Assembly (NCBI GenBank): GCA_028687545.1
Contig: JAQTZZ010000040.1
Span: 1 to 34,601 of the forward strand
DNA: 34,601 nucleotides
Source of the DNA: Candidatus Wallbacteria bacterium
GTDB lineage: Bacteria; Muiribacteriota; JAQTZZ01
Reading direction: 5' to 3'
Every line of letters begins with the position of its first letter. The stretch's first letter is position 1. The translations under genes were made by a program, and so were the position numbers. Below the pieces are notes generated by a model. The model made no database searches, was not told where the DNA came from, and saw only the letters and a program-made list of their open reading frames with translations. Below, one piece after another: positions 2 through 7,105 of this stretch.

Positions 2-3000
2 TGGTCTCAGGAAGTAGCAATTGCAGATTTCGGTCCCAGACGGGACGCCACATGTCTAGTTTTTGACAACAAGATATGGATAATCGGTGGTTATCACACC
101 ACACGCATGCACGATGTCTGGTATTCGGCTGACGGTGTCAAGTGGTTCCAGGCTACAGGAGCTGCCGCCTTCCCCATCAGATCACAACATTCCAGCCTGG
201 TTTTCAATAACCGGATGTGGGTGATTGCAGGAGCCAACGGTCCAAAATTGCGCGACGTCTGGAGCTCGGCAGATGGTGCTGCCTGGGTCAAGGCAACAGA
301 TACCGCCGCTTTTACCGCACGCTATAACCCCACTTCCGTGGTTTTAAATGGAAGGATGTGGGTGATCGCAGGATATGACACAGGTTATAAAAAGGATGTC
401 TGGTATTCCGCCGCAACAGCTGCTAATACCCTTGTTGACCTCAATCTGCCTACTACAGAAGTCACCATGGAAACCACTGCTTACACTCTCCCGGCCACCG
501 GTGAAGCCCAATACAACGACAGTACATTCTATGCAAAACCCCTTACCTGGAGCATCATATCCGGTGACGGAAGTCTAAGCGGGAATTTATATACGAGAGG
601 TACCTCAAACGGTACTGTCGAACTTCTGGCAAGCTGTTCCGAACATTCCAAGACAGTCAGCCGCAAGTTGATAATCCATGTGGCGGACTGGACTCAAGCC
701 TCTGCAAGTGCTGGTTTTACAGCGAGAAAACTTCATGCCAACCTGATTTTTAAAGACAAAATGTGGGTAATCGGAGGGCAATGCAACGGTTCGGATAAAA
801 ACGATGTCTGGTCGTCCAGTAACGGGATCACCTGGAGCCAGGAAACTCCAGGTGCTGATTTTTCAGCACGTTATGGTCATACCTGCCTGACCTTCGACGA
901 CAAGATGTGGGTGATTGGTGGATATACAACAGGACAAGGATTCAAAAATGATGTCTGGTTTTCAAGCAACGGGATCACCTGGTTCCAGGCTACGCTTAAT
1001 GCGGCTTTTGACGCGCGTATGTATCATTCAAGCCTGGTTTTTGACAACAAAATGTGGGTGCTAGGCGGCTTTTCCAATGTTGGATCCTATCATAGATTTA
1101 GCGAAGCCTGGTGTTCGACGGATGGAGTGACATGGACCCGGGCCACCGGAACTGCCTCTTTCTCCGCCAGAGATTATCATTCCAGTTTGACATTCGACAA
1201 TAAAATGTGGGTGATCGGAGGCAGCACAGGCAGCGATAAAAACGATGTATGGTATTCCAGCGACGGGATCTCCTGGTTTCAGGCTACTGCAGGAGCAGCT
1301 TTTACCCCGCGAACCAGGCACACGAGTCTTGTTTTTGACAATAAAATGTGGGTGATAGGGGGCGGAGCTCCTAGTTATGCAAATGATGTGTGGTATTCCA
1401 GTGACGGGATCTCCTGGTTACAGGCTACCGTAAAAGCGGAGTTTAGCGCACGTACGCTTCATACCAGCCTGGTCTATGAGGACAGAATGTGGGTGATTGG
1501 AGGGAGCGACTCAACTGGCTGGAAAAACGACGTCTGGTGCTCATTGGACACTGCTGAGGTAACACCTGTTGACATCAATCTTCCCACTACGGAAGTCACC
1601 ATGGAAACCAGCGCCACCTTTGCTTTGCCTTTGACTGCTGAAATCCAGTACAACAACGGCACATTCACAGCAAATAACCTGACCTGGACAATTTCTACAG
1701 GCTCAGGCGAGATCGTCGATCATTCTTACAGCCCAGGCGGCTCGAACGGCACAGTCGAACTCTCAGCCGGCTATTCTGAACATTCAGTCACAGTCAGCCG
1801 GAAAATAATAATCCATGTGGCGGACTGGATTCAGGCCACAGCAAGCGCGGCTTTCGACGCCAGAAGGGCGCAGAGCAGCATAGTCTTTAATAACAAAATG
1901 TGGGTGATCGGCGGGGATGATGCCAGCGCCAATAAGAGAAACGATGTCTGGTATTCAAGTGATGGGGTAACCTGGACCCAGGCCACTGCGAGTGCGGGTT
2001 TCTCCATCAGATCTGAACACTCCTGCCAGGTTTTTGACGGCAAGCTGTGGGTGATCGGCGGACATGATGGGACTTATAAAAACGATGTCTGGTATTCTAC
2101 GGATGGTGCCGGCTGGACACAGGCCACTGCCGGCGCTGCTTTCTCGGCCCGTGAAAAACTTACCAGCCTGGCTTTTGACAACCGGATCTGGGTAATCGGT
2201 GGAATTGCCACAGGCGGGTTGTTTAAAAAAGATGTCTGGTATTCCACGGATGGCGCAGGCTGGACTCAGGCAAGTACAGACGCCGGTTTTTCAAACTTAT
2301 CAGATCATTCAAGCATAGTATTTAACAATCAGATGTGGGTAATAGGGGGCGGCAATAACTCTGCCTGGTATTCCAGTGATGGAGTAACCTGGACTCAAGC
2401 CACAGCAGCCGCTGCTTTCTCCTCCAGAGACAGGCATACCAGCCTGGTTTTTAACGACAGGATGTGGGTGATCGGCGGAATAGCTTCTGCTTACATGAAC
2501 GATGTCTGGTCTTCGATCGATGGAATCACCTGGACCAGGGCTGCATTAAATGCGGAATTTTCACCGCGCTATAATCATTCAAGCATAGTCTTCAACAACA
2601 GGATGTGGGTGATCAGCGGCTACAGCAGCATTTCTCCTTTATACAGAAAAGATGTCTGGTATTCAGCTGCGACTGCAGAGGTCATGCCCCTTTATCTGGA
2701 AACCTATCCCAAAACCCTGGAAGTGGCTACAGGCGGAACCCTTGAACTTTCCACAATTTCCAAGAAAGTCTTTCATAATGACGGTTCCTCACATGAAGCG
2801 AACAGCGTGACCTATCAGGCAATCGGCGGAGGCTCGATCAACGGTTCTCTATACACTGCTCCTGGAACCTCCTGCGAAGCCACGATAGAAGTGGACTATA
2901 CTGAAAACGGACATTCCATCAGCACGCATATCCGGGTGACTTGCGCGAACTGGATCCTATCCACAGCAAGCGCGGCATTCCCAGCCAGGAATAATCATTC

Positions 3001-3805
3001 CAGCTTGATCTATGACAACAAAATGTGGGTGATCGGCGGAGACATCAATGATTCTCCCTATTACGCAAACGATGTCTGGTATTCGAGCGATGGGATCACC
3101 TGGACTCAGGCCACTGCCCATGCGGCTTTTACAGTGAGGGAGCAGCATACCAGCCTGGCCTATGACCATAAGATGTGGGTGATCGGCGGAAATAACGGCA
3201 GCTCCAGATTCAATGATGTCTATTATTCGACTGATGGTGCGGATTGGACCCCTGCGACTGCTGATGCGGATTTCTCTGCCAGGAAATATCATACCAGTCT
3301 GGTCTTTGACAATAAGATGTGGGTGATCGGAGGCCAGGACAGCACAGGTTATGTTCATGATGTCTGGTACTCTATAGACGGCTCTCAGTGGACACTGGCA
3401 ACCTCTGAAGCTGCATTTCCGGCACGCACAGATTTTACCAGCGCAGTCTATGACGGTAAAATGTGGTTGATCGGCGGATACGGCACTGGTGCTCAAAAAG
3501 ACATCTGGTATTCAAGTGATGGAATCACCTGGACTCAGACTGCGGATATGCCTTCAAACCGGCAAGGCCATACCAGCATTGTCTTTGACAACAAGCTGTG
3601 GGTGATCGCAGGCAGCGACGGCGGGAACTACTATAATGATATCACTTATTATTCAATCTCAGGCGGAAACTGGAACATCGCTGCAGCAGGAGGATTCTCA
3701 GTCCGCAAAGAGCATACCAGCCTGGTCTTCAACAACAAAATCTGGGTGATCGGTGGTTTCAACTGGCCAAGTTCATTGTACAATGATGTCTGGCATTCAG
3801 TTGCC
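2..3805 (+). repeat. Kelch-repeat coding array in six-repeat blocks
   Basis: The DNA repeats with a period of ~150 bp. Near-constant pieces are the MWVIGG codons (aatgtgggtgatcggcgg-like) and gatgtctggtattc. Blocks lie at ~2-415 (three repeats visible), ~690-1550 (six), ~1827-2675 (six) and ~2949-3800 (six). Six repeats per block fits one closed six-bladed beta-propeller each. Such DNA is prone to recombination and to short-read misassembly. Confidence 0.85.
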
Positions 3806-5770
3806 ACTGTTTCCAGCACTCCTGTAGATATCGGCCTGTCTTTCACCACAGTGGAAATCGGGGTCAACCAAGCTTACAATCTGCTTCCAACCGCTGAAAT
3901 CGAATATAATGACGGCACTTTTATCTCGCATGATCTGAACTGGGTCAAATCCGGCAATGGCACTCTTGCAGGTAATGTCTTTACTGCACCGGGCACGGCA
4001 GGTACGACTGAGCTCACGGCATCATATGCTGAAAACGGAGTGACACTCAGCAAGACCCTGGAAGTGGTTTATTTGGACAATTCAAAAACCAAGGTGGTTG
4101 ACCTGGGTGGTGGTGTAAACATGGAATTCGTCTGGATTCCTTCAGGCAGCTTCACAATGGGCGGCCCGGCCAGCGAGGGAGGCGAGAGCAATGAACGCCC
4201 GACACACGAGGTGAACATTACCAAAGGCTTCTGGCTGGCTAAAACTGAAGTCACTCAGGCGCAATGGAAGCAGATCATGGGCAATAATCCCAGTTATTTT
4301 ACAGCAGGCTATCCCAATTGCCCGGTGGAGCAGGTATCCTGGACCGATTGCCAGTCCTTCATCACCAGTCTGGAAGTGCACGGTTACGGCACCTTCCGGC
4401 TGCCTACTGAAGCTGAGTGGGAATATGCCTGCAGGGCCGGGGTTGCCACCGCATATTACTGGGGAGCTGCAATGAACGATAGCTACTGCTGGTATTCCAC
4501 TAACAGCGGCAGTGCAACGCATGATGTAGGCGGAACCACGGCCAATGCCTGGGGTTTGTATGACATGAGCGGGAATGTCTGGGAATGGTGCAATGACTGG
4601 TATGACCCATCCTATTACACTAGTTCTCCAACCGTAGATCCCTCAGGTCCTGCAGTTGGAACTAACAGTGTGGTACGCGGTGGTTCCTGGGATAATGACG
4701 CGTGGTATGCTCGCTCCTCAAGCCGTAACTATGCAGACCCCGGCAGCGGCAGCCGAGCCCAAGGCCTGCGCCTCCTCGCAGTCCCGGCTGGCACGAAAAT
4801 GCCTGTGGAGATCGAACTGTCTGCCACAACAGCGGAAATCGGGACTAATCAGACTTACAATCTTCCAGCAACTGCCGAAATTCAATACAATGACGGCACT
4901 TTTACCTCGCACAATCTGACCTGGAGTATAACCTCAGGCGGCGGAGCTGTTGGCAGTAATATCTTCACTGCTCCAGGTACAGCTGGTACAACTGAGATCA
5001 CAGCTTCGTATGCTGAAAACGGGGTGCCAGTCAGCAGGGTCCTGAAAGTGCATTCTAATGCGCCACTGATAGTTGACCTGGGCAGCGGCGTAAACATGGA
5101 ATTCGTCTATATTCAGTCAGGCAGCTTCACAATGGGTGGTCCAGCCAGTGAGGGAGGCGGCAGTAATGAACGCCCGACACACGAAGTACACATTACCAAA
5201 GGTTTCTGGCTGGGTAAAACTGAAGTCACACAGGCACAGTGGCTGCAAATCATGGGCAACACTCCCAGTTATTTTCCAGCTGGCTACCCCAATTGTCCGG
5301 TAGAGCAGGTTTCCTGGACAGATTGCCAGTCTTTCATCACCAGTCTGGAAGTGCACGGTTATGGAACCTTCAGATTGCCTACAGAAGCCGAATGGGAATA
5401 TGCCTGCAGGGCAGGGACTGCTACTGCATATTATTGGGGAGCAGCCATGAACGGAGCTTACTGCTGGTATACTGTTAACAGCAGCTCCAAAACACATGAT
5501 GCGGGCGGAACCACACCCAATTTCTGGGGCTTGTATGACATGGCCGGAAATGTCTGGGAATGGTGTAATGACTGGTATTTATCGAATTATTACAGCACAT
5601 CGCCTGCTGATGACCCGCAAGGGCCTGTTTCAGGCTCGTATCGGGTGATGCGTGGCGGCTCGTGGTACAGCACCGACCACGATTGCCGCTCCGCGATTCG
5701 CCCCTTTAACAGCCCTGACTATAAGTACAGCGACATCGGGTTGCGTCTGGCCATCCCCCCGCAGGATTAG
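2..5770 (+). CDS. Giant kelch-repeat / Ig-like / tandem FGE-sulfatase-fold protein, 5'-truncated by the window edge
   Basis: The frame is open from base 2 to the TAG at 5768-5770 (1922 codons). The first in-frame ATG (107) lies inside a repeat: the kelch motif IWIIGG is already encoded before it, so the true start and any signal peptide are left of the window. Each ~50-residue repeat reads roughly NDVWYSSDGITWTQAT, then H(T/S)SLVFDNKMWVIGG, combining a kelch GG strand with an Asp-box-like SxDGxTW turn. Visible repeats fall in blocks of 3 (cut by the edge), 6, 6 and 6. Blocks are separated by ~90-residue Ig/Big-like domains (nt ~428-690, 1557-1830, 2680-2950, 3815-4085); a fifth lies at ~4800-5060 between two FGE-sulfatase domains (nt ~4092-4794 and 5072-5767). 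The FGE copies carry the family signatures GLYDM(S/A)GNVWEW and RGGSW. Copy 1 lacks both catalytic cysteines and copy 2 keeps at most one, so a binding rather than enzymatic role is likely. Probably an extracellular adhesin or ligand binder; function inferred. Confidence 0.9.
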   Translation, partial: WSQEVAIADFGPRRDATCLVFDNKIWIIGGYHTTRMHDVWYSADGVKWFQATGAAAFPIRSQHSSLVFNNRMWVIAGANGPKLRDVWSSADGAAWVKATDTAAFTARYNPTSVVLNGRMWVIAGYDTGYKKDVWYSAATAANTLVDLNLPTTEVTMETTAYTLPATGEAQYNDSTFYAKPLTWSIISGDGSLSGNLYTRGTSNGTVELLASCSEHSKTVSRKLIIHVADWTQASASAGFTARKLHANLIFKDKMWVIGGQCNGSDKNDVWSSSNGITWSQETPGADFSARYGHTCLTFDDKMWVIGGYTTGQGFKNDVWFSSNGITWFQATLNAAFDARMYHSSLVFDNKMWVLGGFSNVGSYHRFSEAWCSTDGVTWTRATGTASFSARDYHSSLTFDNKMWVIGGSTGSDKNDVWYSSDGISWFQATAGAAFTPRTRHTSLVFDNKMWVIGGGAPSYANDVWYSSDGISWLQATVKAEFSARTLHTSLVYEDRMWVIGGSDSTGWKNDVWCSLDTAEVTPVDINLPTTEVTMETSATFALPLTAEIQYNNGTFTANNLTWTISTGSGEIVDHSYSPGGSNGTVELSAGYSEHSVTVSRKIIIHVADWIQATASAAFDARRAQSSIVFNNKMWVIGGDDASANKRNDVWYSSDGVTWTQATASAGFSIRSEHSCQVFDGKLWVIGGHDGTYKNDVWYSTDGAGWTQATAGAAFSAREKLTSLAFDNRIWVIGGIATGGLFKKDVWYSTDGAGWTQASTDAGFSNLSDHSSIVFNNQMWVIGGGNNSAWYSSDGVTWTQATAAAAFSSRDRHTSLVFNDRMWVIGGIASAYMNDVWSSIDGITWTRAALNAEFSPRYNHSSIVFNNRMWVISGYSSISPLYRKDVWYSAATAEVMPLYLETYPKTLEVATGGTLELSTISKKVFHNDGSSHEANSVTYQAIGGGSINGSLYTAPGTSCEATIEVDYTENGHSISTHIRVTCANWILSTASAAFPARNNHSSLIYDNKMWVIGGDINDSPYYANDVWYSSDGITWTQATAHAAFTVREQHTSLAYDHKMWVIGGNNGSSRFNDVYYSTDGADWTPATADADFSARKYHTSLVFDNKMWVIGGQDSTGYVHDVWYSIDGSQWTLATSEAAFPARTDFTSAVYDGKMWLIGGYGTGAQKDIWYSSDGITWTQTADMPSNRQGHTSIVFDNKLWVIAGSDGGNYYNDITYYSISGGNWNIAAAGGFSVRKEHTSLVFNNKIWVIGGFNWPSSLYNDVWHSVATVSSTPVDIGLSFTTVEIGVNQAYNLLPTAEIEYNDGTFISHDLNWVKSGNGTLAGNVFTAPGTAGTTELTASYAENGVTLSKTLEVVYLDNSKTKVVDLGGGVNMEFVWIPSGSFTMGGPASEGGESNERPTHEVNITKGFWLAKTEVTQAQWKQIMGNNPSYFTAGYPNCPVEQVSWTDCQSFITSLEVHGYGTFRLPTEAEWEYACRAGVATAYYWGAAMNDSYCWYSTNSGSATHDVGGTTANAWGLYDMSGNVWEWCNDWYDPSYYTSSPTVDPSGPAVGTNSVVRGGSWDNDAWYARSSSRNYADPGSGSRAQGLRLLAVPAGTKMPVEIELSATTAEIGTNQTYNLPATAEIQYNDGTFTSHNLTWSITSGGGAVGSNIFTAPGTAGTTEITASYAENGVPVSRVLKVHSNAPLIVDLGSGVNMEFVYIQSGSFTMGGPASEGGGSNERPTHEVHITKGFWLGKTEVTQAQWLQIMGNTPSYFPAGYPNCPVEQVSWTDCQSFITSLEVHGYGTFRLPTEAEWEYACRAGTATAYYWGAAMNGAYCWYTVNSSSKTHDAGGTTPNFWGLYDMAGNVWEWCNDWYLSNYYSTSPADDPQGPVSGSYRVMRGGSWYSTDHDCRSAIRPFNSPDYKYSDIGLRLAIPPQD
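4080..5767 (+). repeat. Tandem duplication of Ig-like + FGE-fold module
   Basis: Two FGE modules of ~700 bp (from ~4080 and ~5066) are joined by an Ig-like linker that is itself similar to the one before copy 1. Over about the first 175 residues the copies are nearly identical (TFRLPTEAEWEYACRAG and CPVEQVSWTDCQSF are shared exactly). Similarity weakens after the shared CNDWY and is poorest after RGGSW. This suggests a fairly recent duplication followed by selective or targeted change at the C-terminal end. Confidence 0.8.
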
Positions 5771-5905
5771 AATACCGTCATGCGTGTCCTCACAGTCTCG
5801 GCGGGGCAGTAAAAGGTGGGCACATTGTCCGATTAATGGGGACGATTAATGGGACGGTGCTTTACAATTTTACTTTTCATTTGTCAGATTTAAATTTTCA
5901 GATTA
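5771..5905. other. Intergenic gap with a 13-bp tandem duplication
   Basis: This is the convergent gap between the kelch gene and the ATPase. It holds a 13-bp tandem duplication at 5830-5855 (cgattaatgggga followed by cgattaatgggac), then AT-rich sequence. I see no clear intrinsic terminator. A related 13-bp tandem duplication lies on the far side of the ATPase gene at 7175-7200. Confidence 0.5.
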
Positions 5906-7105
5906 CTATTTCGAAATAGTTTTGAATACGAAATCCGAAAAATGCAACGATACTGTTCTGAGACCGAGTTTCAGGCTCTCACGCGAGAGACTGACCAGAA
6001 AGGCACGCTCCACTTCATCCTGGAACAGTTCGCAGAATTGATTCAGTCCTTTCGCCATTCCACTGTTGACTGAGGAACTCAGCTTCACTTCCACCGGGAT
6101 TATTCTCCCCCTGTCTTCCACGATGAAATCCACCTCGTCCCCATGCGATGTTCTCCACCAGTATACTCTCGGGATCTTTCCCGTGTTATGGAAATTTTTA
6201 ACGATCTCCTCCAGGACAACCGTCTCCAGCACCTGTCCGGATAATGGCCCCTTGAAAATCTGTTTTTCGGAAGTGATGCCGTTGAGATGACAGAGAAGCC
6301 CTGTATCCAGAAAATACAGCTTAGGGCTTTTGATGATCCGCTTGCCTTTGTTCCGATAAAATGGCTTGACCAGAATAATCTGTCCGCTCGCTTCCAGTAT
6401 CGTCACCCAGGCTTTGACGGTGTTTACCGCCACACCCAGGTCCCTGGACAGGTTTGAAAGATGAAGCACCTGCCCGTTCTGCGCTGCAGTCAGCTGCAGG
6501 AATCTCTGGAAATCCCCGAGATCCCCGATTTGTCTCAATTGCCTGACATCCCGCTCCAGGTATGTCTGCAGATAGCCTGTGAACCAGGTTTCGAGATTCA
6601 AGTCCTTTCTGAGGGCAACGTCAGGGAATCCTCCTTTTAAAATCTTCTTCTGTAAAAGCTGCAGATCCATTGATTCAACTTCACAGCCCTGCTCTCTGAG
6701 AGAAAATGGCAGCAGCGTAAAAACGGCAATCCTGCCTGCAAGAGACTCGCCCACATGTGCCATCAGCGGAAATATCTGCGAACCTGTGAAGATGAATCTG
6801 CCCCGCATTTCGCGCTGATTGTCGATCATAATTTTAATCTGCTGAAAAAGCTGCGGCACATACTGGATTTCATCGATAATCAATGGAGGGGGAAATGATT
6901 CAAAAAAAAGGGCCGGTTCTTTCGCAGCCAGCAGCCGGATATCCGGATTATCAAGCGAAACATACCGGTATTTCCCTGAAAACAAATGCTTGAGCAAAGT
7001 CGTTTTGCCTGATTGCCGGGGGCCTGTCACTATGACGGATGGGAATTGCCTGGCTGCAGCCAGAAGTGGCTTTTCCATCTCTCTGTGAATGTACTTCACT
7101 GCCAT
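5906..7105 (-). CDS. AAA-family ATPase with C-terminal DUF4143 (AAA_14/DUF4143)
   Basis: This 399-aa protein has a P-loop GPRQSGKTT near residue 28, a Walker B LIIDEIQ near residue 75, and FIFTGSQ as the sensor-like strand. A winged-helix-like middle follows. The C-terminal DUF4143 nuclease-fold half contains DEVDFIV and IPVEVK, the spaced acidic and E-x-K residues of the PD-(D/E)XK superfamily. The family is widespread and often duplicated; its role is unknown, though it is often suspected of mobile or defence-type functions. ATG 7105 has AAAGG directly abutting it, so Met10 (7078) is an alternative start. A near-consensus promoter lies at 7135-7163. The gene stands alone, bracketed by the related 13-bp duplications at 5830 and 7175, which hints at insertion as a cassette. 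Confidence 0.9.
   Translation of the reverse strand: MAVKYIHREMEKPLLAAARQFPSVIVTGPRQSGKTTLLKHLFSGKYRYVSLDNPDIRLLAAKEPALFFESFPPPLIIDEIQYVPQLFQQIKIMIDNQREMRGRFIFTGSQIFPLMAHVGESLAGRIAVFTLLPFSLREQGCEVESMDLQLLQKKILKGGFPDVALRKDLNLETWFTGYLQTYLERDVRQLRQIGDLGDFQRFLQLTAAQNGQVLHLSNLSRDLGVAVNTVKAWVTILEASGQIILVKPFYRNKGKRIIKSPKLYFLDTGLLCHLNGITSEKQIFKGPLSGQVLETVVLEEIVKNFHNTGKIPRVYWWRTSHGDEVDFIVEDRGRIIPVEVKLSSSVNSGMAKGLNQFCELFQDEVERAFLVSLSRESLKLGLRTVSLHFSDFVFKTISK

Follow-up and report, generated by a model that had tools for sequence, protein, structure and literature searches.

A codon-biased variable-region equivalent in a giant kelch/FGE protein of Candidatus Wallbacteria bacterium: a putative relic of a diversity-generating retroelement

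Introduction

Diversity-generating retroelements (DGRs) are marked by a reverse transcriptase (RT) carrying the motifs (I/L/V)GNxxSQ and YxDD, by a template repeat (TR) that differs from the variable region (VR) of the target gene only at adenines, and by AAY-derived (NNY) codons at the variable columns. Further marks are an accessory protein (Avd or HRDC) and, at the 3' end of the VR, an IMH, which lacks a fixed sequence, or a hairpin. Among the described systems, the closest to the locus considered here is that of TvpA (PDB 2y3c), a DGR variable protein of Treponema denticola with an FGE-type C-type-lectin fold, and which belongs to a described DGR with an RT and a template. The same fold and the same Pfam family (PF03781) are found in the formylglycine-generating enzyme (6muj, 2q17), in which the loop cysteine pair following GGS(Y/W) is the catalytic pair.

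Targets that lie away from their diversification machinery have also been described. The protein all3226 of Nostoc sp. PCC 7120 is a dispersed DGR-target paralogue without a nearby RT (PMC7517822), and trans-acting and degenerate DGR loci have been documented (PMC10907252). A literature search for DGRs in Riflebacteria returned nothing.

The window analysed here is a stretch of 34,601 nucleotides, which is contig C40 (JAQTZZ010000040.1) of the draft genome of Candidatus Wallbacteria bacterium (GCA_028687545.1; G000 in the following; 4.54 Mb, 108 contigs, 97.4% complete, 1.8% contamination). A first-pass annotation had proposed that the giant kelch protein at its start is, or was, a DGR target, arguing mainly from the contrast between two tandem FGE domains.

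Results

The first gene of the window (2..5770, plus strand), delimited from the ORF list, the repeats and the Pfam Kelch, Big_4 and FGE-sulfatase matches, has lost its 5' end at the contig start. Its product, of which at least 1922 residues are present, consists of about 20 kelch-type repeats joined by Ig-like linkers and of two C-terminal units, each composed of an Ig-like and an FGE part. The internal FGE-fold domain, copy 1, occupies 4097–4789 on the plus strand (PF03781, G000:C40:4124-4777, E=1.3e-45); a Big_4 Ig-like domain lies between the copies at 4829–4933 on the same strand (PF07532, frame residues 1610-1644); and the C-terminal copy 2 occupies 5072–5767, also on the plus strand (PF03781, E=3.7e-47), and runs up to the stop codon at 5768–5770, both copies being in one open frame. 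An AAA_14/DUF4143 ATPase gene at 5906–7105 on the minus strand adjoins the FGE gene, and no DGR parts were found by Pfam among ten proteins of the neighbouring window genes, including this ATPase.

The genome contains 35 FGE matches, many of them in tandem inside giant frames (1631–3310 aa): five in a 3310-aa frame on C27 (45122–53125), three on C12 (62817–65930) and three on C6 (7676–10372). Such a repertoire is unusually large for a 4.5-Mb genome. Contig C34 codes for another giant kelch/Ig-like protein (L148, about 34294–37311), whose retrieved frame, 852 aa or longer, has no FGE domain at its end.

The structural model of copy 2 has a mean pLDDT of 95, and its best match among solved structures is TvpA, both by fold (TMq 0.87) and by sequence (2.7e-36). 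The variable loop of TvpA is aligned to copy 2 without a gap and lies, as in copy 2, at the C-terminal position. The window protein differs from TvpA in the kelch and Ig-like domains placed in front and in the second FGE copy. Copy 2 thus shares with DGR targets a C-type-lectin (FGE) fold with the variable-region equivalent at the 3' end, and it has a loop of TvpA length; this length is not specific to DGRs, because it is common to the control FGE domains. The enzymes of the FGE family score below TvpA against copy 2, and the loop of the formylglycine-generating enzyme is three residues shorter. Where 6muj and 2q17 read LCHDSYC, copy 2 reads YSTDHDC, so that the first cysteine is replaced by serine and only the second is kept, and copy 1 reads DNDAWYA, with both cysteines absent; the loop cysteine pair of the enzyme is accordingly found in neither copy. 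From the modelled fold and loop, it is plausible that copy 2 works like a DGR variable protein.

The variable-region equivalent of copy 2 extends from RGGSW to GLR at 5651–5746 on the plus strand and ends 21 bp short of the stop codon. As the first-pass annotation had noticed, the codons after RGGSW nearly all end in C or T (NNY): 22 of the 24 codons in 5666–5737 do so, including all 11 at the columns occupied by Asn in known templates of the FGE type. The corresponding segment of copy 1 (4676–4771, plus strand) is not template-like, and its value of 9/11 at the template-Asn columns is unremarkable. None of 50 control FGE blocks, taken from genomes without a detected RT, has 22 or more NNY codons. 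The probability of 22/24 at the control rate of 0.65 is 0.003. The codon pattern of copy 2 is real, yet not decisive alone, because the corresponding chance for the best of 24 paralogues is about 0.07. A codon log-ratio classifier, too weak at the level of single domains, did not set copy 2 apart from the controls (log-ratio 0.1).

The NNY measure was extended to the whole family by comparing the degenerate residues, whose third base is free, at the template-Asn columns with those further upstream in these domains. In the FGE family of G000, 80 of 104 such residues (77%) are C/T-ending versus 53% upstream (p=1.5e-6), with columns that were picked from control DGRs and not from G000, and with a choice of test that was post hoc, the data having already been seen. 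The same measure reaches 0.86 at DGR loci and 0.85 in the closest relatives outside G000, against 0.60–0.67 in three control groups; the G000 rate is higher than the controls (p=0.003–0.005) and lower than the DGR loci. RT-less relatives also show a weak excess (0.65 vs 0.56, p=0.015), and the FGE domains of the G044 family show none (119/199=0.60 vs 0.56). The other FGE domains of G001, a same-family genome with a live DGR, carry little of this signal (8/13).

The two window copies were compared by codon alignment. The two tandem domains are confirmed as PF03781 matches, although the description of them as nearly identical over ~175 residues is too strong: the DNA identity is 83% up to ~5580–5583 (5072–5582 of copy 2 on the plus strand against 4097–4607 of copy 1), and the protein identity upstream of the break is ~82%. 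Beyond the break, the DNA identity falls to 53% over 5580–5662 and 49% over 5663–5749. The strong difference after RGGSW is therefore present, but it starts already ~69 bp upstream of this motif (5651–5665). Among codons for the same residue, 108/149 are identical between the copies before the break and 7/25 after it. The whole 3' ~185 bp differs, silent and scaffold sites included, and the differences are not confined to adenine-derived positions. The elements RSA-R, SPD and IGLR, which had been described as fixed, are not so between the copies, copy 1 having RSSSR....DPGSGSRAQGLR; their conservation holds only in comparison with other members of the family.

The nearest paralogues on either side of the break also differ. 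The N-parts of copies 1 and 2 are each other's nearest relatives (0.84). The stretch before RGGSW (5583–5650 on the plus strand in copy 2) is divergent between the copies, and over the interval between WCNDWY and RGGSW the closest paralogue is C12:62817 for copy 2 (0.65) and C12:64293 for copy 1 (0.67). Such a sharp break would need no DGR: it would follow if the upstream unit had recently been duplicated, or overwritten by gene conversion, up to a boundary in the highly conserved WEWCNDWY codons, which lie at about 5560–5583; the exchange may have gone in either direction. The copy-to-copy contrast, which had been the main argument for a DGR, was rejected as evidence and is no DGR footprint, since the copies also differ at silent sites and in the scaffold.

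The genome-wide check for a DGR-type RT and a template repeat that the first-pass annotation had proposed returned neither from the 97.4%-complete, 108-contig assembly. No RVT_1 match is present in the draft, and a profile of nine DGR RTs gave no match at E<=10, although this profile does detect the RT of G001 (3e-150) as well as DGR-type RTs in G038, G025 and G019. Searches of the assembly for a template repeat of copy 1 or copy 2 with base-or-A patterns (90 nt, <=3 mismatches) returned only self-matches, and a pattern for any template starting with GGSWNN found no RGGSWNN-type template in the assembly. The sole RGGSWNN-like match, on C34, is a kelch repeat (GGFGGSWNNDVW) and not a template. 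The adenine-only logic recovered seven TR/VR pairs in other genomes with 0–6 non-A mismatches, whereas no G000 block, compared within its own locus, had fewer than 27. With these positive controls working, the proposal of a present-day DGR target finds no support, and a working DGR, with its RT and TR, is absent from the assembly; it may sit in the few percent of the genome that the assembly lacks. A recent diversification of the G000 paralogues by one shared template was also considered and rejected: synonymous codon choice in their scaffolds is random (0.80 for the best pair, a value that shuffles attain with p=0.12), and therefore a shared template is not reconstructable.

An intact DGR is present in G001, the one other genome of this family covered by the search, at locus L056 (G001:C466). 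Its RT (5304–6317), TR (5189–5316) and VR (6924–7051) all lie on the minus strand; the RT carries the motifs IGNLTSQ and YMDD, and the 128-nt TR and VR differ by 20 A-only mismatches. The target is an FGE domain, reading RGGSWFFSGPNCRSAYRDYYAPDFRGDGIGLR. The template, RGGSWNNSGTNCRSAYRNYNTPDNRNNNIGLR, aligns gap-free to copy 2, RGGSWYSTDHDCRSAIRPFNSPDYKYSDIGLR, with 19 non-A mismatches in 96 positions, which is the fewest of 24 G000 blocks and below all 50 controls; the count for copy 1 is 32. This DGR resembles copy 2 in taxonomic family, FGE target, template length and scaffold. However, with 19 non-A mismatches of 96, the G001 template cannot now be serving copy 2.

Other DGR-like loci were seen in further genomes. 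L064 (G035:C40) and L065 (G026:C170) each have an RT with the motif IGSQISQ and a TR/VR pair of their own with 15–16 A-only mismatches; the variable region is not of the RGGSW/FGE type. At L199 (G038:C165) and L200 (G025:C77), a template-like RGGxWNNN stands beside DGR RT frames broken by in-frame stops; these are apparently decaying DGRs in the same phylum.

The FGE copies of locus L089 are 91–94% identical upstream, 0–18% at the variable columns and 77–92% at other columns, a textbook footprint of a multi-target DGR. The fetched stretch of this locus (Bacteroidia bacterium MS495-74, BNTS01000009.1) contains no DGR RT motif. For single examples, the identities of the N-part, the variable (V) columns and the non-V columns are 0.94, 0.00 and 0.92 at L089, and 0.89, 0.09 and 0.92 at L068. 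Real multi-target DGRs thus keep a near-identical scaffold, whereas the non-V columns of the window pair are only 31% identical (0.31). For G000 paralogue pairs with N-parts 65–82% identical, the identity at template-Asn columns is 0–0.36, and for control pairs at 65 to 90% N-part identity it is 0.45–1.0. This contrast is no more than suggestive of hypervariability, because orthologues make up most of the control pairs, and the small number of paralogue pairs among them at an N-part identity near 0.6 range from 0 to 0.64.

Discussion

The DGR link of copy 2 is more than a shared fold. Three observations carry it: the intact DGR with an FGE target in G001, TvpA as the nearest solved structure, and the NNY excess of the G000 family. 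Through them, the part of the first-pass proposal that the protein was once a DGR target is upheld indirectly. We hold with moderate confidence that 5651–5746 is a relic or orphan variable region of an FGE family founded by a DGR that is now gone, with the contrast between the copies arising from mosaic evolution. We infer the past DGR action, since no RT or TR is present in G000, and likewise the loss of the DGR and a ligand-binding role.

According to this relic reading, the C-terminal FGE domain would be a module of the ligand-binding type, like the TvpA-type variable proteins, and 5651–5746 would be the equivalent of their variable region. An ancestral DGR resembling that of G001 may have diversified members of the family by adenine mutagenesis during the copying of a template RNA into the 3' ends of the targets. 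The RT and template would since have been lost from G000, or would at least be missing from its assembly. Duplications, point mutations and recombination would now shape the family, which counts about 35 FGE matches. In the window gene, the upstream Ig-like and FGE parts were probably duplicated or homogenised recently, while the last ~185 bp may have kept, or received, a different ancestry; the copy contrast would then reflect mostly mosaic evolution and not recent adenine mutagenesis. A codon bias that outlives saturated silent sites is a point against the relic reading and needs explaining.

The main rival is that the genome carries an ordinary FGE-fold family that was never a DGR target, in which the loop after RGGSW is a naturally variable ligand-facing surface that diverged by point mutation, recombination at WEWCNDWY and selection for different ligands, its C/T-ending codons following from its high content of N, D, S, Y, H and G. 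We regard this as possible, though less likely than the relic reading. It accords with RGGSW...RSA.R....P....GLR being the general family consensus in G000, with the assembly lacking an RT and a TR, with the silent and scaffold differences between the window copies, with control paralogue pairs whose V identity can be 0 near 0.6 N-part identity, and with the modest codon score of copy 2 once corrected for the choice among 24 blocks. Against it, the NNY excess is residue-conditional and above the controls, being absent from the G044 family; the nearest relatives in other genomes have a strong DGR-type signature; and the same-family G001 has a DGR with the same type of target.

That a live DGR acts on copy 2, with its RT and template in an unassembled or unbinned part of the genome, is improbable. 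The draft state of the assembly, the known trans-acting and degenerate loci and the 11/11 NNY codons at the V columns leave it some room, but the near-identical scaffold kept by active multi-target DGRs (L089, L068) is missing from the window pair, whose scaffold codons differ, and no FGE-type template occurs anywhere in the G000 assembly. A bolder version of the relic reading, that the ~35 FGE matches, spread over giant kelch/Ig-like proteins and others, form a large DGR-founded recognition repertoire kept diverse after the loss of the DGR by recombination of loop cassettes at WEWCNDWY, is considered unlikely.

The situation in G000 is similar to that of all3226 in Nostoc sp. PCC 7120 in that C-terminal lectin-fold paralogues are scattered in the genome with the diversification parts missing at the locus. 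In Nostoc, however, remnant TR-VR homology is detectable and DGRs are present in the genome, and neither was found in G000. As dispersed RT-less targets and degenerate or trans-acting loci have already been published, the G000 case at most adds one more example to these known types.

Conclusions

Similarity upstream combined with dissimilarity downstream in two tandem copies is, taken alone, no evidence of a DGR. Where a genome is fragmented and no RT has been assembled, the NNY codon test could reveal targets of past or trans-acting DGRs. If the segment in copy 2 is a relic, the fold, the loop and the third-base codon bias outlast the mutator, while the identity to the template is erased; and if the FGE family is in addition a recognition repertoire still diversified by loop exchange, a repertoire made by a retroelement would have been handed over to ordinary recombination.
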